From the IMG/VR virus record IMGVR_UViG_3300042691_006459, positions 1 to 30,498 of that record: a stretch of DNA of 30,498 nucleotides; one strand, written 5' to 3'. The notes under the pieces were generated by a model. The model made no database searches and was not told the DNA's origin. It was given only the letters and a program-made list of their open reading frames with translations. This document shows, piece by piece, positions 4,495-29,395 of the stretch. The position numbers and the translations under genes are program-made. This DNA is from a virus. Position 1 is the first letter of the stretch. Each line of letters opens with the position of its first letter.

Positions 4495-6654
4495 ATGGAT
4501 CCTAACATCCTTAGACTTGCAATGGGTGCTGGTGGCGGTGCTGCTACTGGTTTGAATCTATACATGTGGGGCCAAAACACTTGGGGCGGTGTTGGAAACG
4601 GAACCGCAGTAAATCAAATTAGTCCCAAAAGAATTGGTTTGCTTTCAGATTGGTCTAAAGTTGCTGGTACTTCTAGTTCTTCTGCTGCTATTAAAACAAA
4701 TGGAACCTTATGGGCTTGGGGAATTAATAGCAGCGGCCAACTTGGAGATGGCACTACTACAGCAAAATCATCCCCAATTCAGGTAGGAGCATTATCTACT
4801 TGGTCTCAGATTAAAGCAGGCAATGCCTTCTGCCTTGCCCGTAAAACAGATAACACTCTATGGGCTTGGGGTCAGAATAATTCTGGACAATTGGGGCTTG
4901 GCGATACAACCAGCTACAGTTCACCTGTTCAAGTTACATATTTTGGAACAACAACGGACGTAGCTTGCGGTAGTAATTTTTCACTAATAATTTCTGGCGG
5001 CGCCTTATGGGCAGTTGGGGATAATGGTTCCGGCCAATTGGGACTGGGGGATGATATAAATAGATCTACCCCAGCTCAAATCGACTCAGGGTTTTCAAAA
5101 ATAGCCGCTGGCAGCGGCCATAGTCTTTCTATTAAGACAAATGGAACTTTATGGGCGTGGGGAGCCAATGTCAGCGGCCAACTTGGAAACGGAACTACAA
5201 CCTCAACATCTTCTCCCATACAAGTTGGGACTCTTAATACTTGGTCTAAAGTTGCTTGTGGAGCGCTTTTTTCTGCTGCAATCAAAACAGATGGAACTCT
5301 TTGGACTTGGGGAAGTAATGTTGCTGGTCAACTTGGTGATGGTACTACTACTAATAGGTCATCTCCGGTTCAAGTTGGTGCTCTAACAAATTGGTCTGAA
5401 GCTTATTGCCATCCATCTAGCAATACAGTAATAGCTATTAAGACAGATGGTACTCTATGGGCTTGGGGGGAGGGGAGTAGTGGGCAAATTGGCGACGGAA
5501 TTATTCTTAGTAGATCATCTCCCGTTCAAATCGGCTCTCTTTCTAATTGGTCTCAAGCGGCTGCTGGTGGAGATTTCAATCTTGTAATAAATACTAGCTC
5601 TGAAATTTATTCTTGGGGAGGCGGTAGCAGCGGCCAAACTGGCCTTAATCAAGATAATTATTCATCTCCAGTACAGGTTGGCAGCAATGAGTGGACCTTG
5701 GTTTCTGGCAGCACTCAATATTCTGCTGGAATAAAAGCCGACGGCAGTCTTTGGGTTTGGGGGCTTGGGAATTCTGGTCAACTTGGTAATAGTCGTACTA
5801 TTGATGCCGTCTCTTCGCCGATTCAAGTTGGCTCTTCTTATGATTGGTCAAAGGTTGAATGTGGCGGCACTAACGTAGTCGCAATCAAATCAAATGGGAC
5901 TCTTTGGACTTGGGGAACTGGAACTAGCGGAGAGCTTGGCGACGGAACCACAACCTCTAAATCATCTCCCATTCAGGTTGGTGCATTATCCGATTGGTCG
6001 CAGGCTTCATTTGGAAACGGTTATGCTGTTGCTATTAAGACAAATGGTACGCTATGGGCTTGGGGGGCTGGGGCTTTTGGTAGGCTTGGCGACGGAACTA
6101 CTGTTAGTAAATCATCTCCCGTTCAAATTGGAGCATTGTCGGATTGGTCGCAAATAAGTGCAGGTAGCGCATTTTGTTTGGCAATTAAAACTAACGGCAC
6201 CATTTGGGCTTGGGGAAATGGAACTAGCGGAGAGCTTGGCGATGGAACTGCGGTAAGCAAATCTTCGCCTGTTCAAATTGGTGCCCTTTCAGATTGGGCG
6301 CAAATTTCCGCCGGATCCGCTCATAGTTGTGCCGTAAAAACAAACGGAACTCTTTGGACTTGGGGTGCGGGGGGATCAGGACGCCTTGGTCACAATAATG
6401 CTGTTAGTTTAAGTTCGCCAACGCAAGTTGGTGCTTTGTCCAATTGGGCGCAAGTTTTGGGAATGGGATCGCATACCATTGCTGTAAAAACCGATGGAAC
6501 CCTTTGGGCTTGGGGAGCTAACTCTGTTGCGCAACTTGGCGATGGCACTACAACAGCGAGGTCTTCTCCTGTTCAAATTGGAGCCTTGACAAACTGGGAT
6601 TCAACTTTAGTTGATGGCTCACAATCAGGCACATCTGGTGCCTTAAAACTATGA
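4495..6654 (+). CDS. RCC1-repeat beta-propeller protein (14 repeats), probable tail surface protein
   Basis: A 719-residue protein consisting almost wholly of RCC1-type repeats of about 50 residues. The recurring unit reads LWAWG.N.SGQLGDGTT then SSP.Q(V/I)G, a short SW/NW motif and an AIKTNGT strand. I count 14 LW(A/T)WG-type units, from residue about 22 to about 673, which is what two seven-bladed propellers would need. The N-terminus (MDPNILRLAMGAGGG) is short and glycine-rich, perhaps an attachment peptide. Cellular RCC1 is a chromatin-bound Ran exchange factor, but in a phage the propeller is more likely a binding platform. Base use is visibly more A+T-rich than both neighbours, suggesting separate acquisition. 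The stop overlaps the glycosyltransferase start (ATGA). Confidence 0.9.
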   Translation: MDPNILRLAMGAGGGAATGLNLYMWGQNTWGGVGNGTAVNQISPKRIGLLSDWSKVAGTSSSSAAIKTNGTLWAWGINSSGQLGDGTTTAKSSPIQVGALSTWSQIKAGNAFCLARKTDNTLWAWGQNNSGQLGLGDTTSYSSPVQVTYFGTTTDVACGSNFSLIISGGALWAVGDNGSGQLGLGDDINRSTPAQIDSGFSKIAAGSGHSLSIKTNGTLWAWGANVSGQLGNGTTTSTSSPIQVGTLNTWSKVACGALFSAAIKTDGTLWTWGSNVAGQLGDGTTTNRSSPVQVGALTNWSEAYCHPSSNTVIAIKTDGTLWAWGEGSSGQIGDGIILSRSSPVQIGSLSNWSQAAAGGDFNLVINTSSEIYSWGGGSSGQTGLNQDNYSSPVQVGSNEWTLVSGSTQYSAGIKADGSLWVWGLGNSGQLGNSRTIDAVSSPIQVGSSYDWSKVECGGTNVVAIKSNGTLWTWGTGTSGELGDGTTTSKSSPIQVGALSDWSQASFGNGYAVAIKTNGTLWAWGAGAFGRLGDGTTVSKSSPVQIGALSDWSQISAGSAFCLAIKTNGTIWAWGNGTSGELGDGTAVSKSSPVQIGALSDWAQISAGSAHSCAVKTNGTLWTWGAGGSGRLGHNNAVSLSSPTQVGALSNWAQVLGMGSHTIAVKTDGTLWAWGANSVAQLGDGTTTARSSPVQIGALTNWDSTLVDGSQSGTSGALKL

Positions 6655-9102: not shown

Positions 9103-9266
9103 TCTTCGACAACGACATCACTAAGGTTATGGCCGTAACCGTGGGAGGCTCCTTGGGAACAATCACCCTTACTCAAGTGAATGAAATTGCGGCCTTCATC
9201 CTCGTTCTGGTGTCGATTGCGTACACTGTCGTAAAGCTGATTAAGCTCCTAAAGCGCGATGAATAA
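9099..9266 (+). CDS. Small single-span membrane protein, possible second holin/antiholin
   Basis: A 55-residue frame, ATG at 9099 overlapping the upstream stop (ATGA) and TAA at 9264-9266. It reads MIFDNDITKVMAVTVGGSLG, then one hydrophobic segment (EIAAFILVLVSIAYTVVKLI, residues about 29-48) and a basic end (KLLKRDE). The size, single membrane span and basic tail, with position directly after a holin-like gene, suggest a class of small holin or a holin regulator. Its 3' end overlaps the start of the next gene by 8 bases. Confidence 0.7.
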   Translation: MIFDNDITKVMAVTVGGSLGTITLTQVNEIAAFILVLVSIAYTVVKLIKLLKRDE

Positions 9267-9501
9267 GAAGGCCATGAAGTGCAATGTCCCGCGCCGCGAG
9301 GTGCAGGGCGGCAAGAAGTTTGTCGTCAAAGCCTGCCAGAATGGACAGGAGCGCATTGTCCGCTTTGGGGATGCGAACATGACGATTAAGAAGAACCAGC
9401 CTGCCCGCAAGAAGAGCTACTGCGCCCGCTCTGGCGGCATCAAGGGCAAGAGCAACAAACTTTCCGCTAACTATTGGAGTCGGCGGGCTTGGGACTGTTA
9501 A
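9259..9501 (+). CDS. Conserved small basic phage protein
   Basis: An 80-residue, very basic protein starting MNKKAMKCNVPRREVQGGKK. The recognisable pattern is CN.PRR then GGKKFVVKAC, G.ERI(V)RFGD.NM.IKK..PARKKSY.ARSG and a C-terminal YWS...W. This series is familiar from small conserved proteins of podovirus-like aquatic phages, whose function is unknown. Three cysteines (8, about 31 and about 54) plus a terminal Cys could hold a metal. It overlaps the membrane protein gene by 8 bases and precedes four more tiny genes, so it belongs to a translationally linked cluster. Nucleic-acid binding is possible from the charge but not shown. Confidence 0.75.
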   Translation: MNKKAMKCNVPRREVQGGKKFVVKACQNGQERIVRFGDANMTIKKNQPARKKSYCARSGGIKGKSNKLSANYWSRRAWDC

Positions 9502-19640: not shown

Positions 19641-19836
19641 TTGAAGAGCAAATGTTCTCTGGTACTAATTTGTACCAATGTTGAACAAGTGAGCGCAGCG
19701 CGGCGTTCTCGCGTTCGAGTTCGCGGGTGAATTCGGGGGAAACAAACTCTTGCGGCTCAGACGAAAGCCCCCAATGTCCGACAAAAGCAACGTCCACGTC
19801 TCGGACCGCTGCGTCAGTTCGTGGAGTGTCGCTCAC
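19603..19836 (-). CDS. SDTPRTDAA-type coiled-coil protein, short paralogue
   Basis: A 77-residue protein from GTG 19836, which overlaps the upstream stop (GTGA) with an AAGGAGG seven bases before it. It starts MSDTPRTDAAV, continues DVDVAFVGHWGLSSEP and has a zipper core ELERENAALRSL (residues about 40-50). The first ~50 residues are nearly the same as in the 23367 gene (DVDVAF.....GL.SEP......P.F.RELERENAALRSL), after which the two part. It is thus one member of a local family. The function is unknown. The C-terminus is helical and charged (SSIEDAQKKAKPSA). Confidence 0.75.
   Translation of the reverse strand: MSDTPRTDAAVRDVDVAFVGHWGLSSEPQEFVSPEFTRELERENAALRSLVQHWYKLVPENICSSIEDAQKKAKPSA
19694..19725 (-). 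repeat. LERENAALR-encoding dispersed repeat, copy 1
   Basis: One copy of the ~31-bp unit whose core CGCAGCGCGGCGTTCTCGCG (plus-strand reading) is also found exactly at 20219 and 23758 and nearly exactly at 20134, 23611, 20029 and 24209. On the minus strand it encodes RENAALR within a leucine zipper. Confidence 0.8.
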
Positions 19837-20318
19837 GGCTGCGCCTCCTTTCGGGCTTTAATTAAAGCCGTATTTGCGATTGACGGACAATCGCAACCGT
19901 AAGGGCAAATGCCGTCTCCATGCGGTGAATTCTGATCATATTTGGCTATCGTCTTTAACGCCTCTAGCAGCGCGGAGTTTTGGTTCACAAGTACGCTTAT
20001 CTCATCCCAACTGACTTTCATCTTTTCACGCAATGCCGCGTTTTCGCGTTCAAGCTGTTCGATCCTCCCTCGCAACGAGTATTCACGCTCGCTGCCCTTA
20101 GCGTTGAGCGTGCATTGCTCTTTCACCTCCTCCCGCAGCGCGGCGTTCTCGCCGTTCAATCGGTAGCGTTCCACAGCATCTTCGCACGCCATGTCGTGTG
20201 CTTTGCGGTTCTCCTCCCGCAGCGCGGCGTTCTCGCGTTGGAGCTGTTGCATTTTTTGCAGCAGCTCCTCCATCTCGGTCAGGTTGGAATTACTCCAAGA
20301 TTGTGTGTCTTTGTTCAT
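19833..20318 (-). CDS. Coiled-coil protein with three REN/GENAALR zipper units and a CPYGCDC motif
   Basis: A 161-residue, almost entirely helical protein. Zipper units are QLQRENAALREEN (residues about 25-37), LNGENAALREEV (about 54-65) and QLERENAALREKM (about 88-100), with NQNSALLEALK continuing the heptads. Near the C-terminus, ICPYGCDCPS (about 137-146) gives a Cys-rich turn that may bind a metal. It ends IKARKEAQP, and those last codons contain the AAGGAGG that serves the next gene. The start ATG overlaps the SWIM gene stop. It probably self-assembles or pairs with the sister coiled-coil proteins; the function is unknown. Confidence 0.75.
   Translation of the reverse strand: MNKDTQSWSNSNLTEMEELLQKMQQLQRENAALREENRKAHDMACEDAVERYRLNGENAALREEVKEQCTLNAKGSEREYSLRGRIEQLERENAALREKMKVSWDEISVLVNQNSALLEALKTIAKYDQNSPHGDGICPYGCDCPSIANTALIKARKEAQP
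19844..19850 (-). promoter_or_regulatory. SD AAGGAGG inside the 3' codons of the upstream gene
   Basis: On the minus strand AAGGAGG sits seven bases before GTG 19836 and at the same time encodes the Lys-Glu-Ala part of the upstream C-terminus KEAQP-stop. Confidence 0.85.
20029..20249 (-). repeat. Three copies of the dispersed zipper-encoding repeat
   Basis: Copies start at 20029, 20134 and 20219 (plus-strand coordinates) in one gene. The third is identical to copies at 19694 and 23758 over the 20-base core, and the second differs only at the end of the core. Confidence 0.8.
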
Positions 20319-21088: not shown

Positions 21089-21306
21089 CGGATGGCTTCT
21101 TCCAAGTCAGCGATCACTTCGTCGATTGCATCAGCCACTTCGCCGCTTGGGCGAAACTTGGCAATGATCTGGTGCAGCTCGTCGATAGCGTCTTTGATGG
21201 CAGCGATCTTCTCAATGTTGCTGATGTCGGCCTCCTTGAGGTCATCACGCAGAGCGTTGTTGTCGCGGTACAGGTTGAGCAGTTCTTGTTGGTTGTCTGT
21301 GTTCAT
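21085..21306 (-). CDS. Small coiled-coil protein, diverged member of the zipper family
   Basis: A 73-residue acidic helix. It starts MNTDNQQELLNLYRDNNALR, where LYRDNNALRDDL is a diverged form of LERENAALREEL, and continues IEKIAAIKDAIDELHQIIAK and ADAIDEVIADLEEAIR. The ATG overlaps the helicase stop (ATGA). Such acidic partners beside a replicative helicase are often loader or accessory subunits, but no motif shows that here. Confidence 0.65.
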   Translation of the reverse strand: MNTDNQQELLNLYRDNNALRDDLKEADISNIEKIAAIKDAIDELHQIIAKFRPSGEVADAIDEVIADLEEAIR

Positions 21307-22565
21307 GTTGTTCTCTCGATGAATTTGGTGTGCGGGGCGAAGAAGGTCAAGCGTGTTTGGTAGAGTGCGCCGTCTCTGTTCTTAAGTTGATAGAGTTCTT
21401 GGAGGTATTCGCTACGATCATAACCCTGTAGCTGTCCCGAGTCGTCCTTGGATGGACGGTGCAGGGCAAGCACACGATGGGCATCCTCCTCAATGCTTCC
21501 GGTGTCGCGGAAGTCGGTGCGCCCCGGTGGACGGTCCTCACGTTCGTTGCCACGGTTGAGTTGGGCAGCGACAATGAGGGTGCAGCCGAGGGCTTTCTTG
21601 AGCGGGATCATACTTTTGCTCAGCTTGGTCATCCGCTCATAGGCACCGTCTGCGTTCACCTTGATAAGGCCGAGGTAGTCGATGAGCACTAGATCTGGCT
21701 TCCATGTGGCAGCGATGAGGCGGCAGCGGGCTTCTATTTGCTCAAGGCTGAGATCGCGCTCAAAAACCAGCAGAGGCTTCTCCTTGAGCTTCGCCACCTC
21801 GTTCACGAGATCATCCTGCTTGGCCTTAAACTCCTCACGGATGCGGCGGAGGTTAACTCCCGCACGTTGCGCCGCCATCTGCAACACCACCGCCCTTGCT
21901 GATGTCTCTAACGTGAAGTAGGCCACACGCAGTCCGCGATACAGATTATGGTGCGCGAGTTGTGCCATGAAAGAGCTTTTGCCAGTTGAGGTGCGTGCGC
22001 CGAGGATGACGTACTCATGCATCCCAATAGCCCCTGCCCCTTCATCAAAGCGGCGTAGACCTGTAACGACAACCTTCTCATCAGCCGTGTTGCCCGTAAT
22101 CTGTCCCGTGATCCATGCGACGGCTTCTTCCACGGTTTCAGGCAGACTTGCCTCCGTTCGTTCCTCTGGCTTGAGGTGCTCGGCTAGAGCCTCCACCGTT
22201 TCCTTGATGTCCTTGTAGGGCTTGCCGTCGTCAATCAGGGACAAGGCGTCGTTCAATGCAGGCCGTAGCTGGGCGATGATGCCAGCCTCCAGCACACGGC
22301 TCAGGGCTTTCTTGCCGTGGGTCTGAGTAGGTGCCGAGGCTTCGCACGCAAGCAACTCATCGGCGGGGCAGTCGGTTCCCATCTCCAAAAAGATGGCCTG
22401 CATATCCGTCAACTTGCTGTTGGTGCGCGAGTCCAGCAGTTGCAGCCAGATGCGCTTTCGGTCGTCGGATGTAAACGCATCAGCCTTCAGCCCGCTGCCA
22501 ATGGCATGGTCGATGAGTGTCGGCTCCAACATACAGGAGCCTAGAAATACCTGTTCGTAATTCAT
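21303..22565 (-). CDS. Replicative DNA helicase, DnaB family
   Basis: A 420-residue hexameric-type helicase. Residues 1-130 match the DnaB N-terminal domain (YEQVFLGSCMLEPTLI, then DDRKRIWLQLLD), and the RecA-type motor has Walker A GARTSTGKSS (189-198), FTLETSAR with E220, Walker B DLVLIDYLGL (291-300), AQLNRGNE (334-341) and DFRDTGSIEEDA (351-362). It unwinds the phage fork. It is a little shorter than bacterial DnaB (~470). The leader is A-rich without SD (AGAAAAACAGAATG). No DnaC-like loader or primase is recognised nearby. Confidence 0.92.
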   Translation of the reverse strand: MNYEQVFLGSCMLEPTLIDHAIGSGLKADAFTSDDRKRIWLQLLDSRTNSKLTDMQAIFLEMGTDCPADELLACEASAPTQTHGKKALSRVLEAGIIAQLRPALNDALSLIDDGKPYKDIKETVEALAEHLKPEERTEASLPETVEEAVAWITGQITGNTADEKVVVTGLRRFDEGAGAIGMHEYVILGARTSTGKSSFMAQLAHHNLYRGLRVAYFTLETSARAVVLQMAAQRAGVNLRRIREEFKAKQDDLVNEVAKLKEKPLLVFERDLSLEQIEARCRLIAATWKPDLVLIDYLGLIKVNADGAYERMTKLSKSMIPLKKALGCTLIVAAQLNRGNEREDRPPGRTDFRDTGSIEEDAHRVLALHRPSKDDSGQLQGYDRSEYLQELYQLKNRDGALYQTRLTFFAPHTKFIERTT

Positions 22566-23055: not shown

Positions 23056-23370
23056 TCATGTGCTCTCCCTATTAAGAGCTTTTTCAGTCCCGCTTTCTTC
23101 CCATGATTTAGACCAGAGGCTTGTCGCCTCAGCAATGTCTTCTAGCGCACCCTTGTAACGGTTGCGCTGAATTTTGAGTGCGGTGTTTTCACCCTCCAAC
23201 TCACGATATGCGTCTCTCCACGTTAGCCCGTCATCGCTGTTAACTGCGCTCGGCGCACGGAAATACACGTCCTTTCGGAGAAAGGCTACCTCTCGCTCTA
23301 AGTTAACTATGCGAATCGCCGCTTGTTCAGGGTTCTCCTGAATGTACTTAGCTAAGTCGGGGTGCTTCAT
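23056..23370 (-). CDS. Small helical protein of the cassette array
   Basis: A 104-residue protein (MKHPDLAKYIQENPEQAAIR). The start at 23370 overlaps the upstream stop (ATGA) and is preceded by AAGGAGG with seven bases of spacing; earlier in-frame codons lie inside the upstream gene. It has two zipper-like phrases, NLEREVAFLRKD (residues about 27-38) and ELEGENTALKIQR (about 60-72), which echo LERENAALR. The end is ESGTEKALNREST. It is likely a coiled-coil partner; the function is unknown. Confidence 0.7.
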   Translation of the reverse strand: MKHPDLAKYIQENPEQAAIRIVNLEREVAFLRKDVYFRAPSAVNSDDGLTWRDAYRELEGENTALKIQRNRYKGALEDIAEATSLWSKSWEESGTEKALNREST

Positions 23371-23900
23371 AGCTGAGCCTCCTTGCGAGCGGCGTCGATG
23401 GCGGCGCGAAGATCTCGGCAGATCACCAAGTTTTCTGGGCATGGGTGACCAGTTTTAGCGCGAAGAACATTGATATACGCGTTCATCACCTCTTCGGCTG
23501 CGTCAGCCAGATGAGACTTACTCATCCAATCTGCCTCTGCCTCGTCATAAGCGTCGGCGAGTGCACCTTCAATAGAGTTGCGGACACGATTTACGTCTTC
23601 TAGCTCTTGCCGCAGCGCGGCGTTTTCGCGTTCGAGTTGTTCGAGTTGTTCGCTCGCGTCCTGAAACCGTCGTATCCGCTCTGCTTGCCACACTTCCCAG
23701 CCGTTGCACTCCCTCAGATAGTGAGAGTGCATCGCGTTCGGGTCGTCGATGAGACTGCGCAGCGCGGCGTTCTCGCGTTCCAATTCGCGGGCGAAGTCAG
23801 GTTCGACCACATTCTTAGGCTCCGAAGCTAGGCCGTCGTGGCTGGTGAACGCCACATCAACCGCGAATACCGCCGCGTCAGTTCTCGGTGTGTCGCTCAT
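23367..23900 (-). CDS. SDTPRTDAA-type coiled-coil protein, long paralogue
   Basis: A 177-residue protein starting MSDTPRTDAAVFAVDVAF. The start is ATG 23900 (ATGA overlap, AAGGAGG seven bases before it). The first ~50 residues are paralogous to those of the 19603 protein, including PDFARELERENAALRSL (about 34-50). A second zipper, LEQLERENAALRQELED (about 84-100), follows a linker with CNGWEVWQAERIRR. The C-terminal part is helical with HPCPENLVICRDLRAAID and ends ARKEAQL. It is probably an oligomeric scaffold or adaptor with unknown partners. Confidence 0.75.
   Translation of the reverse strand: MSDTPRTDAAVFAVDVAFTSHDGLASEPKNVVEPDFARELERENAALRSLIDDPNAMHSHYLRECNGWEVWQAERIRRFQDASEQLEQLERENAALRQELEDVNRVRNSIEGALADAYDEAEADWMSKSHLADAAEEVMNAYINVLRAKTGHPCPENLVICRDLRAAIDAARKEAQL
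23378..23384 (-). promoter_or_regulatory. SD AAGGAGG inside upstream KEAQL codons
   Basis: AAGGAGG on the minus strand, seven bases before ATG 23370, encoded within the upstream gene's last codons. Confidence 0.85.
23611..23789 (-). repeat. Two copies of the dispersed zipper-encoding repeat
   Basis: Copies start at 23611 and 23758 within one gene. The second is identical to copies at 19694 and 20219 over the 20-base core. Confidence 0.8.
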
Positions 23901-24082
23901 AGCTGGGCCTCCTTGGCAGCGATGATGATGACAATGCCCAGCCCAATCCAAGCTATAGCCAACAGTCCGTCTACCAGATAAAACCAGATGGGGCGGAGCC
24001 TGATTCTGAACTCCATGAAACAATTATTAGCGAGCCAGCCACCGTAGGCTACGCAAAGACACCCAAGCAATAATCCAATCAT
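23897..24082 (-). CDS. Small two-span membrane protein in the cassette array
   Basis: A 61-residue protein starting MIGLLLGCLCVAYGGWLANN at ATG 24082 (ATGA overlap and AAGGAGG). It has two hydrophobic stretches: residues about 2-18 and about 36-54 (LVDGLLAIAWIGLGIVIII), joined by a basic linker FRIRLRPIWF. It ends AAKEAQL. A membrane anchor inside a set of coiled-coil genes could place the set at the membrane. The function is unknown. Confidence 0.7.
   Translation of the reverse strand: MIGLLLGCLCVAYGGWLANNCFMEFRIRLRPIWFYLVDGLLAIAWIGLGIVIIIAAKEAQL
23908..23914 (-). promoter_or_regulatory. SD AAGGAGG inside upstream KEAQL codons
   Basis: AAGGAGG on the minus strand, seven bases before ATG 23900; it forms part of the upstream membrane protein's terminal AKEAQL codons. 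Confidence 0.85.
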
Positions 24083-24297
24083 GGCTTGGCCTCCTTGGTT
24101 CGCAAGCGATAAATCACTTTTCTCCATGCCTCAAGTTGTCCGTGCGTAAGTTCTATGTCTCCGTGCAACATTTGATTTATGTAGTCATCGCTAATTTCCA
24201 ACGCCTCCCGCAGTGCGACGTTTTCGCGTTCAAGCTCGGTAATGCGTGCAGTCTGTGTCGCATACACATCTTCCCATCGCGTTGCTGGAGCACTCAT
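24079..24297 (-). CDS. Small coiled-coil protein of the cassette array
   Basis: A 72-residue protein (MSAPATRWEDVYATQTARI) from ATG 24297 (ATGA). A zipper TELERENVALREALE (residues about 20-34) is a one-step variant of the family core. The rest is charged helix ending RLRTKEAKP. The function is unknown. Confidence 0.7.
   Translation of the reverse strand: MSAPATRWEDVYATQTARITELERENVALREALEISDDYINQMLHGDIELTHGQLEAWRKVIYRLRTKEAKP
24090..24096 (-). promoter_or_regulatory. SD AAGGAGG inside upstream KEAKP codons
   Basis: AAGGAGG on the minus strand, seven bases before ATG 24082; part of the upstream C-terminus TKEAKP. Confidence 0.85.
24209..24239 (-). repeat. Dispersed zipper-encoding repeat, diverged copy
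   Basis: The core here is CGCAGTGCGACGTTTTCGCG, three differences from the common form; it encodes RENVALR. Confidence 0.7.
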
Positions 24298-24524
24298 AGC
24301 TGACCCTCCTCTTCTTCTTGCTTGAAGGACTTGAAGAACCCGCGAGCAATGCTCCTCATGCGAAACGCAGCGGGGCAATCGTTGTCGTCGAGGTAGGTGT
24401 CTGCCACTTGGCCTATGGCTGCGCGAAGCTGGGCCACCTCCGTCTCTAGTTCGTGGATGACTTTCCGGTAGTGCGACGGAAAATCATGGGTATAACGTGT
24501 CTCATTCGGTATTTCTGTTTTCAT
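24294..24524 (-). CDS. Hypothetical small protein, first gene of the cassette array
   Basis: A 76-residue protein starting MKTEIPNETRYTHDFPSHYR at ATG 24524. It has a zipper-like phrase HELETEVAQLRAAIGQ (residues about 24-39), and ends FKQEEEEGQL. Its leader is A-rich (ATCAAAAACATG) and lacks a SD, unlike the genes that follow it in the array. Two small hairpins lie in the gap ahead of it. The function is unknown. Confidence 0.65.
   Translation of the reverse strand: MKTEIPNETRYTHDFPSHYRKVIHELETEVAQLRAAIGQVADTYLDDNDCPAAFRMRSIARGFFKSFKQEEEEGQL
24305..24311 (-). promoter_or_regulatory. SD GAGGAGG inside upstream EEEGQL codons
   Basis: GAGGAGG on the minus strand, seven bases before ATG 24297; the same junction type with a different flanking codon. 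Confidence 0.75.
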
Positions 24525-24568: not shown

Positions 24569-25393
24569 TTAACTAAGGCGAGGATCGAAGTGCCGCCACC
24601 GCCACAAGGCGAGCAATTTTAGGAATACTGAGAAACTGCGACTAATCGTGTCATTGTCATAGACGACGGCATCAACACGCCCCACTTCGGTGGTGGAGAT
24701 GTAAATGTTCACGCCCATAACTCCACGCCCAAAGAGGATGTCGAGATCGCCATCCCATAAATCTTGAGCGTAGCAATAGGCCGCGATCTGCACGGGATGT
24801 GTTTCAATCGGCTCAACGGCAACGTCTGGCTTGGTCCGTTTGGACTTAAAGTCCACAATGGCCAACCCGTCGCCATATTTGCCCATAAGGTCGCACGTCC
24901 CAGCGTAGCCCTCAAAGCCGTTGACAACTCTCAGCTCATGGTAGAGCGGAGTGATGCCAAGTTTCTCAATCTTATGGACGGCGGGAAGGACAAATTCCCG
25001 GCACGGCACGGCTTTGCCGTCAGGCATGGAGAACGTAGCGGTCCCGTCCCATGAGTCGTGGTCGGTGTAGTACTGCTCAAGACTGGCGTGGATCAGGGTA
25101 CCAAGGTCAGCCGCTCCTGCTGCATCTTCCCCTGCAAGCTCGGTGATGCGGCCTCGATAGGCTTGCAACTCCTCGCTGGCGAACGGTGGGTTGTTGTAGC
25201 AGGCTTGGATAGTTTGGTACACCTTGTACTCCTCTAGGCCGGGAGCCGAAAGCATCTTGGTGTACTCCGTTACGCTCGGGAAAAGCCGCTGCTCACGGAT
25301 ATCCTTGAGGTTGGTGGGCCTAGTTGGGTTCTTGGCCCCCGGCTTGGTCTGCTGATAGTGGACGGCTGTGCCATCCCGTGTGTAGGCGTGCAT
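24569..25393 (-). CDS. RecB/Cas4-like PD-(D/E)XK exonuclease
   Basis: A 274-residue protein. LGTLIHASLEQYY (97-109, with H102) precedes Y152-H-E154, D168 (GTCDLMGK), D181-F-K183 (IVDFKSKR) and the Q202-IAAY motif (PVQIAAYCYA). This H...D...DxK...QxxxY order is the RecB-type nuclease signature. It probably resects or processes phage DNA in recombination with the SSB-like protein next to it. The start overlaps the SSB-like gene's stop (TAATG). Long enough for one nuclease domain and no helicase part. Confidence 0.82.
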   Translation of the reverse strand: MHAYTRDGTAVHYQQTKPGAKNPTRPTNLKDIREQRLFPSVTEYTKMLSAPGLEEYKVYQTIQACYNNPPFASEELQAYRGRITELAGEDAAGAADLGTLIHASLEQYYTDHDSWDGTATFSMPDGKAVPCREFVLPAVHKIEKLGITPLYHELRVVNGFEGYAGTCDLMGKYGDGLAIVDFKSKRTKPDVAVEPIETHPVQIAAYCYAQDLWDGDLDILFGRGVMGVNIYISTTEVGRVDAVVYDNDTISRSFSVFLKLLALWRWRHFDPRLS

Positions 25394-25953
25394 TAGAACG
25401 GCACTTCTTCGGACGGAACCTCATTCGTTGCCATCACAGGAGCCAAATATCCTTCTTGCAACTTCTGTGCAACACGGATAAGCATGGATGCGGTCTGCCA
25501 TACATCATCTGCTCCGATGTGCTCATTTCGCGCCACTAGGATGTCCACGGCCTTGTTCACGGCCATCCCAACGGTTACGCCCTCAATGCGGGAAGGCCCA
25601 GAAACGGCCTTTGCTTCGATTTTACGGGGTTCTTCAGCCGCAGGGGCAGGCTGGGCTTGGGTAGCCTCGCCTACGGGCTTAAAAACGACCTTATCCCCGA
25701 AAATAAGCTGGATTCCGCCGCGATAATCGTCTCCCCGCTTGATGCCGGGGCCAGAAAACTGGACCCTTTGGCCGTTAACGTGCTCAAAAGTCTTAGAAAA
25801 GGACGTTACGTCCACCGTCAAACCACCCTCGGAAAGCGTAGCCTTCCAAAAGGTCTTTCCTGACTTGCTAGTGAGGGCTTTTGCCCCCGAGACATTGGCA
25901 ACGATGTTGCCCTTGACGTATTCGCCCGGTTGGGCCGCTAGGATGTTGTTCAT
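25393..25953 (-). CDS. SSB-like single-stranded DNA-binding protein
   Basis: A 186-residue protein. Residues about 10-95 are beta-rich (EYVKGNIVANVSGAKALTS, GKTFWKATLSEGGLTVDVTS, GQRVQFSGPGIKRGD, GIQLIFGDKVVFKP), compatible with an OB fold. A Pro/Ala/Gln linker (about 97-110) follows, and the protein ends in an acidic hydrophobic tip EVPSEEVPF, like the DDDIPF tip that recruits SSB partners. It would coat single-stranded DNA at the fork or at resected ends. The leader is CAACAACAAATG, without SD. A distant OB-fold protein of other function remains possible. Confidence 0.65.
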   Translation of the reverse strand: MNNILAAQPGEYVKGNIVANVSGAKALTSKSGKTFWKATLSEGGLTVDVTSFSKTFEHVNGQRVQFSGPGIKRGDDYRGGIQLIFGDKVVFKPVGEATQAQPAPAAEEPRKIEAKAVSGPSRIEGVTVGMAVNKAVDILVARNEHIGADDVWQTASMLIRVAQKLQEGYLAPVMATNEVPSEEVPF

Positions 25954-27250: not shown

Positions 27251-27434
27251 TGTGTTTCCTTGCCTTAAAAGAGGAGAGGCGGTCAGCCAAGGGCGAAGGC
27301 TCGCCCTCCCACGTTCTCCGCTTTATTAGGGCCTCGTTGGCCATTAGCACGATATCCGGCGTCCATCGACTAGCCCAAAAGCAAGCCCCGGAACGAACCA
27401 TTCGCCAAGCCTCAACCCATTTTTCGTTTTTCAT
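27237..27434 (-). CDS. Hypothetical 65-residue protein
   Basis: A basic Trp-rich protein (MKNEKWVEAWRMVRSGACFW, then ASRWTPDIVLMANEALIKRR). It starts four bases after the endolysin stop, with leader AAGTAACACAATG. No motif recognised. The Trp-rich amphipathic N-terminal half could associate with membrane or protein. Confidence 0.55.
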   Translation of the reverse strand: MKNEKWVEAWRMVRSGACFWASRWTPDIVLMANEALIKRRTWEGEPSPLADRLSSFKARKHNGKA

Positions 27435-27438
27435 TGTG

Positions 27439-27825
27439 TTACTTCATTGCATTAACTACTTTGCGGGAATAGGATAGGGTGGCACGTTTCTTATGCCCCA
27501 TAGGCCCGCCATTGTGAATCCGCGCCAACGTCGCAACGTCGCCCCGCTCCCATGCGTTGCGGGCATAGCGGCGCAAATAGGCGGTGACGACGCGCCGGGA
27601 GTAAGCTAAATCCGCGCAATCGGAATATTGCCCCGGTACTCCGGAGTCCTGCCAGTAAGCGCGATGGATTTGCAACGGTCCAAGCGCAGCCCCATTGTCG
27701 CCTTTAATGGGTCCAAGCCTGCCCGACGTTTCGACGTGATGCAAAGCCCGCCAAAAGGCTTCCGGCGGTGCAGCGTTAGCCGTTGCGAGGGATGCGAGGG
27801 CGAAGAATAGAAGTTTTGCTTTCAT
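27439..27825 (-). CDS. Endolysin, lytic transglycosylase/lysozyme-like with signal peptide
   Basis: A 128-residue protein. Residues 1-19 are a Sec-type signal peptide (MKAKLLFFALASLATANAA). After it, E32-T-S-G (HHVETSGRLG) is the catalytic Glu motif, followed by GALGPLQIHRAYW (about 45-57) with a central GPLQI, then RRVVTAYLRRY and ARIHNGGP (residues about 102-109, like the YNGGP motif). That order fits GH23-like transglycosylases. It would reach the periplasm through Sec and degrade peptidoglycan. It is on the early strand while the holin-like genes are on the late strand. The start is in a TAATG overlap. Confidence 0.75.
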   Translation of the reverse strand: MKAKLLFFALASLATANAAPPEAFWRALHHVETSGRLGPIKGDNGAALGPLQIHRAYWQDSGVPGQYSDCADLAYSRRVVTAYLRRYARNAWERGDVATLARIHNGGPMGHKKRATLSYSRKVVNAMK

Positions 27826-28261: not shown

Positions 28262-28299
28262 TGTGTTTCTTTGTTTTTGGGTTTTTGGCAATCTCATCA

Positions 28300-28334
28300 G
28301 GCCCGGCTTGCCAATCCGGACGACGGGCCAAGCC
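28300..28334 (-). promoter_or_regulatory. Two alternative hairpins in an 85-base gap
   Basis: GGCCCG (28300-28305) pairs with CGGGCC (28324-28329), and GGCTTG (28305-28310) pairs with CAAGCC (28329-28334). The pairs share their boundary bases, so the two stems may compete or stack as a pseudoknot-like fold ahead of the 28070 gene. Purely sequence-based. Confidence 0.4.
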
Positions 28335-28346
28335 CGTTTCGATAGG

Positions 28347-28696: not shown

Positions 28697-28903
28697 TTAG
28701 CAGTCGGAAAGAATAACTTTGGGCGCAATCATGGACCGGGAAAGTCCCTTGTGTGAAACTTCGATTTCAACGATTGAAACCGTCGCGAGGTGAAAGCCGC
28801 AACCATTCCAGCGGTCAACCCAAGCCTTAGCTTGCTCGATCCCGGCATAGCCCGTCGCGAGGGCGCGGTTGATTTGGTCAACTGTCATTTCGGAGGTGCT
28901 CAT
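28697..28903 (-). CDS. Hypothetical 68-residue protein
   Basis: Starts MSTSEMTVDQINRALATGYA; residues about 15-35 form a helix (AGIEQAKAWVDRWNG), then strands (HLATVSIVEIEVSHKG). The leader AACAAAAACACAATG has no SD. No motif recognised; position among the first transcribed early genes suggests a host-directed role. Confidence 0.6.
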   Translation of the reverse strand: MSTSEMTVDQINRALATGYAGIEQAKAWVDRWNGCGFHLATVSIVEIEVSHKGLSRSMIAPKVILSDC

Positions 28904-28939
28904 TGTGTTTTTGTTTATTGTTTGCGTTAGTAGTTGGAT

Positions 28940-29119
28940 TCACTCCGATTCTTCGCTGTCTTCTTTGTCCTGTTCAGGGTTCCGTGCAAGCCAAGCGGCA
29001 TAAGCGGCCTCCTCTGCTGCACGTTTGGCCTGAATTCGTTTCTCGTCGGCTTCAGACCATAGGCCGTACCGATTGCGGATTTCCTGCAACGCATCATTTA
29101 TTGATACCGGGTTATTCAT
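28940..29119 (-). CDS. Hypothetical 59-residue acidic helical protein
   Basis: A short frame, ATG 29119 to TGA 28940-28942. It reads MNNPVSINDALQEIRNRYG, then ADEKRIQAKRAAEEAAYAAW (about 24-43) and a very acidic end (DKEDSEESE). Supported by the same AACAAAAACACAATG leader as its neighbour at 28903, by the absence of any other coding frame here, and by even spacing (30 and 36 bases to its neighbours). Ala/Glu-rich helix with acidic tail; function unknown. Confidence 0.65.
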   Translation of the reverse strand: MNNPVSINDALQEIRNRYGLWSEADEKRIQAKRAAEEAAYAAWLARNPEQDKEDSEESE

Positions 29120-29149
29120 TGTGTTTTTGTTTATGGTTTGCGTTTGTGC

Positions 29150-29365
29150 TTAGGAGTTAACCTTGCGGGTGATGCGGCCCCACTTGTAGTGTGTATACCC
29201 GTCAAATTGGGCGTTTTGACGCAAGCTTTCGAGTGCGCCCCGGAGAGTCTTAAATCCGCGCCCCCGCGCATCTAGAAAACCAAGGGACGCATTGCAATAA
29301 TAAAAGCCCCCAACGTCCTCGAAGACTCGGGCAACCTTGCGTTCTGTTTCGGTATTTGTGCTCAT
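29150..29365 (-). CDS. Hypothetical 71-residue protein
   Basis: Starts MSTNTETERKVARVFEDVGG; middle YYCNASLGFLDARGRGFKTL, then LESLRQNAQFDGYTHYKWGR. Small alpha/beta protein, moderately basic, no motif recognised. Leader ATAAAGACAAATG without SD. One of the first genes transcribed in the minus operon. Confidence 0.6.
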   Translation of the reverse strand: MSTNTETERKVARVFEDVGGFYYCNASLGFLDARGRGFKTLRGALESLRQNAQFDGYTHYKWGRITRKVNS

Positions 29366-29395
29366 TTGTCTTTATTGTTTATTGTTTGCGTTTGT

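Follow-up and report, generated by a model that had tools for sequence, protein, structure and literature searches.

Shine-Dalgarno/stop/start connectors repeated between non-homologous small genes mark sites of cassette gain and loss in a group of uncultured phages

What makes a series of small phage genes end in nearly the same codons, each overlapping the start of the next gene? A virus record of 30,498 bases (the window, meaning the whole stretch that was analyzed) poses this question on its minus strand, and a sequence-only reading had proposed that the shared ends are a standard connector through which small genes can be inserted or shuffled while their translation stays coupled. To place the window among its relatives, we gathered these by helicase or exonuclease homology rather than by the connector motif, and called genes in both the relatives and the window with a simple home-made codon/SD script. 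All sequences come from metagenomic contigs. The recurrence of identical arrays in independent assemblies (L125/L140 and G001/L240) makes chimeric assembly at 18-nt repeats unlikely, an argument that does not cover every array.

The window contains exactly four copies of the pattern AAGGAGG-N7-RTGA, all on the minus strand, while dinucleotide shuffles of the window contain 0.05 copies on average and at most one (0 of 100 shuffles reach four). This confirms the four junctions first listed at 19836, 23370, 23900 and 24082. A fifth, listed at 24297 with GAGGAGG in place of AAGGAGG, was also found (24294-24311) and likewise joins consecutive small genes (Table 1). The codons AAG GAG GCN CAG CYA TGA translate as ...KEAQ(L/P)-stop, and the overlapping ATG or GTG opens the next gene; the upstream genes of the five junctions end in KEAQP, KEAQL, KEAQL, KEAKP and EEGQL. 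Part of this tail is unavoidable, since a perfect Shine-Dalgarno sequence (SD) at that distance within an ATGA overlap forces the residues K-E-(A/G). The spacer CNCAGCY is not forced by the SD and the overlap, and it is there that the information beyond the SD resides. The description of the joined proteins as unrelated was partly overstated for the window, where the 161-, 177-, 72- and 77-aa genes share an ENAALR-type coiled-coil motif, the genes at 19836 and 23900 are paralogues (MSDTPRTDAAV...), and the two-span membrane protein (23897-24082) is the sole clearly unrelated one. Across the relatives, however, the description stands, with 22 families flanking connectors.

Table 1. Connectors, intragenic joints, array genes and core flanks in the window. 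Positions are those of the window; "stop" marks the termination codon.
Feature	Position	Strand	Remarks
Connector 1, GAGGAGGGTCAGCTATGA	24294-24311	-	upstream ...EEEEGQL-stop; downstream MSAPATRW
Connector 2, AAGGAGGCCAAGCCATGA	24079-24096	-	upstream ...KEAKP-stop; downstream MIGLLLGC
Connector 3, AAGGAGGCCCAGCTATGA	23897-23914	-	upstream ...KEAQL-stop; downstream MSDTPRTD
Connector 4, AAGGAGGCTCAGCTATGA	23367-23384	-	upstream ...KEAQL-stop; downstream MKHPDLAK
Connector 5, second array, AAGGAGGCGCAGCCGTGA	19833-19850	-	upstream ...KEAQP-stop; downstream VSDTPRTD
Intragenic joint (ENAALR), GAGAACGCCGCGCTGCGC	23757-23774	-	
Intragenic joint (ENAALR)	23610-23627	-	
Intragenic joint (ENAALR)	20217-20234	-	
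Intragenic joint (ENAALR)	20133-20150	-	
Intragenic joint (ENAALR)	20028-20045	-	
Intragenic joint (ENAALR)	19693-19710	-	breakpoint with G001
Segment of 474 nt	19694-20167	-	98.5% identical to G001; ends at ENAALR codons
Array I anchor gene, 76 aa	24294-24524	-	MKTEIPNETRY...EEEEGQL-stop
Array I cassette, 72 aa	24079-24297	-	ENVALR coiled coil
Array I cassette, 61 aa	23897-24082	-	two-span membrane protein
Array I cassette, 177 aa	23367-23900	-	MSDTPRTDA head; two ENAALR joints; KEAQL end
Last array I cassette, 104 aa	23056-23370	-	connector-less end (...LNREST-stop)
Array II cassette, 161 aa	19833-20318	-	three ENAALR joints; KEAQP-stop end
Array II cassette, 77 aa	19603-19836	-	48-aa head ending LERENAALR; other tails in G001/L240
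Core flank, PD-(D/E)XK exonuclease	24569-25393	-	fixed; candidate recombination nuclease
Core flank, DnaB-like helicase	21303-22565	-	fixed

Among the relatives we counted 41 connectors in 17 genomes, flanked by 22 gene families. They make up 41 of the 108 four-base overlaps, and the remaining overlaps have neither the SD nor the spacer (for example, that between the helicase and the next gene, MKRTPLKR...). Connectors match AAGGAGG at 6.56 of 7 positions, whereas the SD is weak at the majority of starts in these phages: the match is 3.67 at the remaining 4-nt overlaps and 3.56 at other starts, with 3.10 as the value at random positions. The high match at connectors is partly definitional, but the spacer plays no part in the definition. 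Between connectors of one clade that differ in both upstream and downstream family, spacer identity is 0.65; the remaining 4-nt overlaps give 0.24, and connectors compared between clades give 0.245. With one representative per family pair, the values are 0.62 and 0.25, and none of 5,000 label permutations reached the observed value, although the pairs are not phylogenetically independent. The identity is still 0.62 when the coiled-coil family (family 1) is absent on both sides. The similarity thus exceeds what any SD or overlap in these genomes would give, a point on which the original proposal could have failed. An exact-pattern scan of viral contigs for the clade A connector matched at least 119 stretches, the majority of which, among the matches listed, hold one match each in unrelated contigs; these were treated as background or selected data and left out of the spacer statistics.

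The connectors come in two clade-specific types. Clade A, the close relatives (helicase at least 95% identical), uses AAGGAGGNNCAGCY-ATGA, which yields KEAQL/P-stop or KEGQL-stop, and the more distant clade B (helicase ~82% identical) uses AAGGAGGTGCGWC-GTGA, which yields EGGAT/S-stop. The two are unlike not only in spacer length and start codon but also in reading phase, and a crossover from an A-phase upstream gene into a B connector makes that gene miss its stop. Such cross-phase joins are present in L128 and L141, where the upstream protein ends KEVRRE-stop and overlaps the next gene by 8 nt. An A-type connector stands immediately upstream of the helicase in the clade B genome L139, and the unrelated contig L199 carries both types within one array. 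The idea of a standard connector therefore survives as a repeated joint but not as a universal one. In clade A, position -6 (the Ala/Gly wobble base) varies, and DNA-level constraint may therefore not extend to every spacer base.

Translation alone could be thought to account for such uniformity, if an optimal SD and an ATGA overlap had been reached independently at each junction without any recombination. AAGGAGG is a perfect SD at a workable spacing, and coupling is the general rule at -4-nt overlaps, most of which have an SD whose contribution varies (PMC6728339). We nevertheless regard this explanation as unlikely. Other 4-nt overlaps of the same genomes have no SD and no common spacer, clade B mostly has the weaker GTG start at a different spacing, and the connectors carry the gains, losses and SNP-marked crossover described below. 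Within a clade, connectors have in common spacer bases that form no pairs with rRNA, and between clades these bases are random; the uniformity of each clade is therefore in better agreement with selection for mutual compatibility than with independent tuning of translation. Less likely still is shared descent, in which the array genes would be tandem duplicates of one coiled-coil gene whose ends have not yet diverged. True paralogy does link several of the cassettes (the two MSDTPRTD... copies of the window, and ENAALR family 1), but the connector-joined families include two-span membrane proteins and a RuvC-like Holliday junction resolvase, the spacers stay alike with family 1 on neither side, and connector type tracks genome clade, not gene family.

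Few of the cassette products can be named. The recognizable cassettes or array neighbors are a Holliday junction resolvase (phrog_1770; RuvC-like), a pentapeptide-repeat protein (PF00805) and a Dam-like methyltransferase, the match to the last falling below the Pfam cut-off (L129:667-1143, L132:12389-12877 and L088:8074-8565). The cassette proteins had no tblastn matches in named phages, two scans of bacterial species genomes gave no match, and PHROGs held no families for the window cassettes tested, save for one marginal match of unknown function.

If the connectors serve as points of exchange, gene content should differ between them. In the relatives, the core order is constant (SSB-like protein, exonuclease, array I, helicase, ..., array II, phosphoesterase), and hypervariable arrays joined by connectors fill the segments that separate the core genes. 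In the window, the exonuclease adjoins an unclassified 186-aa protein (25393-25953). Clade B has a third variable site, before MSLNIEDARS. No two of five clade A genomes have the same gene after the anchor gene (MKTEIP...EEGQL-stop), and the gene after the clade B anchor (...REGGAT-stop) likewise varies, with several alternatives. The two-span membrane cassette, flanked by two cassettes in the window, stands immediately before the helicase in L125. Array II can also be seen empty, as ...AMETTK-stop-ATGAGC in L129, L134, L137 and L138, or filled, as ...ME(V/T)T(E/Q)GGAT-stop plus cassettes in L133, L136 and L139. L139 and L133 differ by one cassette bounded by two connectors. At the L133 junction, the left flank is 97.3% identical to the left side of L139 and the right flank is 95.3% identical, while the wrong flanks match at just 0.40 and 0.23. 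The junction has the T allele of the right-hand connector (GCGTC), and the combination of this allele and the right flank with the left flank places the crossover inside GAAGGAGGTGCG.

Breakpoints in homology between genomes point the same way. A first test on all 212 loci was superseded by tests restricted to the focal clade and to the arrays, because one unrelated phage group dominated its counts. Connector zones hold 37 of the 674 unique homology breakpoints in the focal clade, against 4.1 expected, and 59 of 301 across the 42 array-bearing loci, against 10.5 expected; this excess of ~6-9 times comes from counts that are phylogenetically non-independent. Homology coming from the left usually extends through the final base of ATGA and no further, and homology on the right starts at AAGGAGG. 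In the focal genomes, a breakpoint is present in 80% of connectors, in 51% of the remaining 4-nt overlaps (p=0.002) and in 42% of the remaining starts, so connectors are favored but not exclusive. The insertion and shuffling proposed for these genes is thus supported: connectors are kept while the genes between them change, breakpoints in relatives coincide with them to the base, and the opposite outcome, a fixed gene order with diverged junctions, was not seen, the order being fixed only for the core.

The same comparisons bear on the shared peptide itself. KEAQL or EGGAT could be a degron or a targeting tail, with the SD overlap as a by-product, and the clade A pattern, with its free wobble at -6, is compatible with amino acid conservation. 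We consider this very unlikely and reject it because the tail changes with the downstream neighbor: the MLNL gene ends METTK-stop before the phosphoesterase and MEVTEGGAT-stop before a cassette, and the SWIDPNN cassette ends MENTK-stop in L139 and METTQGGAS-stop in L133. Moreover, the last genes of arrays have no such tail, phase-shifted connectors produce KEVRRE-stop, and the A and B tails differ. A second shared coding end, ...(A/T)ME(T/N/Q)T(K), was observed in the MLNL gene, the SWIDPNN cassette and the pentapeptide cassette of L132, each when preceding the phosphoesterase (compare L139 12817-13802 with L133 11296-12123), as if array II had a terminal joint of its own.

A further joint, missed in the sequence-only reading, lies within genes. 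Across the same 42 loci, ENAALR-coding 18-mers hold 28 of the 301 breakpoints, against 4.1 expected (again phylogenetically non-independent counts). G001, a 66-kb contig of an otherwise unrelated phage with six connectors, has no helicase match, an exonuclease match of only 24% and no close core genes. Its near-identical match to the window spans a connector and breaks off where the following gene encodes ENAALR; part of the same segment is 99.7% identical to L240. The 48-residue head VSDTPRTDAAV...LERENAALR is attached to three tails unrelated to one another: one in the window, one in G001a/L240 and one in G001b, where the ENAALR copy is slightly altered. Together with the connector exchanges, these joins of heads to tails imply two levels of shuffling, one of whole genes and one of gene heads and tails. 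Outside the arrays, an 80-aa basic protein of the structural gene cluster (9259-9501, plus strand) is 70% identical to one in G001.

Arrays of small genes with short common boundaries resemble integron cassettes, which are marked by attC-type inverted repeats and a tyrosine integrase, and the crossovers are located within the connector, but recognition of the connector by a site-specific recombinase is a remote prospect, given that no such recombinase or integrase was found among the subset of proteins scanned in the window (itself possibly a fragment), that the connectors are asymmetric by inspection and, outside the SD, wholly different between clades, and that unrelated ENAALR-coding DNA is also used for crossovers, which fits homology-driven exchange.

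We consider it probable that the connectors are recombination-compatible boundary sequences that keep inserted genes ribosome-coupled, judging from sequence features as regards both the coupling and the recombinase. The arrays appear to belong to a mosaic, podovirus-like phage, in which a connector of ~18 nt would play three roles, closing the upstream gene with its final codons and stop, supplying the SD of the downstream gene, and providing the downstream start within the ATGA/GTGA overlap. Cassettes inside the arrays start and end with the same kind of connector, so a recombination event that involves two connectors, whether of a single genome or of two phages in the same cell, would insert, delete or swap a gene, and the new neighbor would automatically be given a stop in frame, a strong SD and a start that overlaps. 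Termination-reinitiation coupling may then operate in vivo, as the sequence features would fit. The crossover itself could proceed on short homology (annealing of 12-20 nt) by means of a phage exonuclease with an annealing or SSB-like protein, or by host RecA, and some arrays encode a Holliday junction resolvase. Maintenance would follow if matching connectors alone keep frames and SDs intact in the arrays.

The sequence-only reading knew of no repeated connector of this kind, but precedents do exist in the lambda nin genes, the HK620 boundary sequences, the start-associated sequences (SAS) and the PeSLs; what is new is the clade-specific, two-level, more uniform form that is embedded in coding ends. 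The lambda nin genes are the clearest precedent. The nin region has been called "a chain of interlinked genes" (Kroger & Hobom 1982, as cited in PMC8022706), and conserved boundary sequences in lambdoid phages are credited to Clark et al. 2001 for HK620 and to Susskind & Botstein 1978 (as cited in PMC3029335). As these citing papers present them, both share with our arrays packed small nonessential genes, ATGA overlaps with an upstream SD, mosaic content, and short conserved boundaries proposed as crossover sites. The window and its relatives likewise show consecutive small genes with ATGA-type overlaps, a short sequence common to the boundaries of non-homologous genes, and mosaic transitions that fall at the boundary. 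In lambda we measured a spacer identity of 0.50 over five nin/Q overlaps with similar ends (...EAA-stop, ...EGA-stop). The connector here is more uniform (near-perfect AAGGAGG, spacer 0.65-0.72), and it differs in its two phase-incompatible clade types, three array sites, intragenic joint and sharing with unrelated phages. The helicase is just 24-28% identical to its best named phages, none of them lambdoid among the best matches listed, and the nearest matches of one structural protein are head-closure/stabilization proteins of uncultured phages. The arrays, as far as their sequences tell, are therefore the same kind of device as nin but not a lambdoid nin region.

SAS and ESAS of Cluster K mycobacteriophages (PMC3203893) and Cluster EF Microbacterium phages (PMC7302621) are ~13-bp SD-containing repeats that stand immediately before the starts of different families and are conserved beyond rRNA pairing, and the connectors likewise place an SD-containing repeat immediately before starts of several families. 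However, the SAS consensus is GGGATAGGAGCCC or GGGAAAGGACCCC, unlike either connector type, and most SAS occupy intergenic gaps longer than 50 bp, an inverted repeat often accompanying them, with exchange not the reported feature, whereas every connector counted sits within a 4-nt overlap, forms the coding end of the upstream gene and is a site of gain and loss. A second start-associated repeat in the window does occupy an SAS-like position: a 32-nt A-rich leader without an SD abuts the starts of unrelated small early-region genes (28900-28931, 29116-29147 and 29364-29395, with a weaker copy at 27412-27443) and is present again in L125. The PeSLs of T4-type phages (Arbiol et al. 2010; Comeau et al. 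2014; as cited in PMC4503421) are described there as repeated regulatory sequences among small genes that mediate gene shuffling between related phages, but they are transcription units of promoter plus stem-loop, while the connector is a translational joint without a recognizable promoter; promoter-like sites were found at no connector, and their number was not above that in shuffles. For gene 68 of the mycobacteriophage Island3 (PMC3029335), the C-terminal 18 residues (~50 bp) that adjacent genes have in common suggest recombination at a coding end, a single event where the connector is a standing repeat.

Two other features of the window stand apart from the arrays. A Type II hammerhead ribozyme (Rfam RF02276, 38.2 bits against a gathering threshold of 37) lies on the minus strand at 28283-28344, in the intergenic gap immediately 3' of the stop of a 109-aa gene, and another is found in the relative L126 (3875-3936, 39.4 bits). 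On the plus strand, 4495-6654 encodes a 719-aa protein with RCC1-like repeats recognized by eye (WGxNxxGQLGDGTT...), unusual for a phage tail region.

Three other uncultured phage contigs (L284, L278 and L259) have five or six SD-overlap junctions each with spacer flavors of their own, suggesting that the phenomenon is wider than the focal group. It is conceivable, though we lean somewhat against it, that unrelated uncultured phages use a cross-phage pool of cassettes exchanged on two "cohesive ends," the phase-incompatible SD/stop/start connector types and the ENAALR-codon joint. If so, shared heads, tails and whole genes would be recombined much as in modular cloning. Repeated, clade-typed connectors are found here together with an SNP-resolved crossover, empty and filled sites, and near-identical cassettes in an unrelated phage. 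With connectors caught in the act, the old question of homology-directed versus illegitimate mosaicism becomes directly testable, and the connectors may offer a natural design rule for inserting a gene into a phage operon with expression kept.
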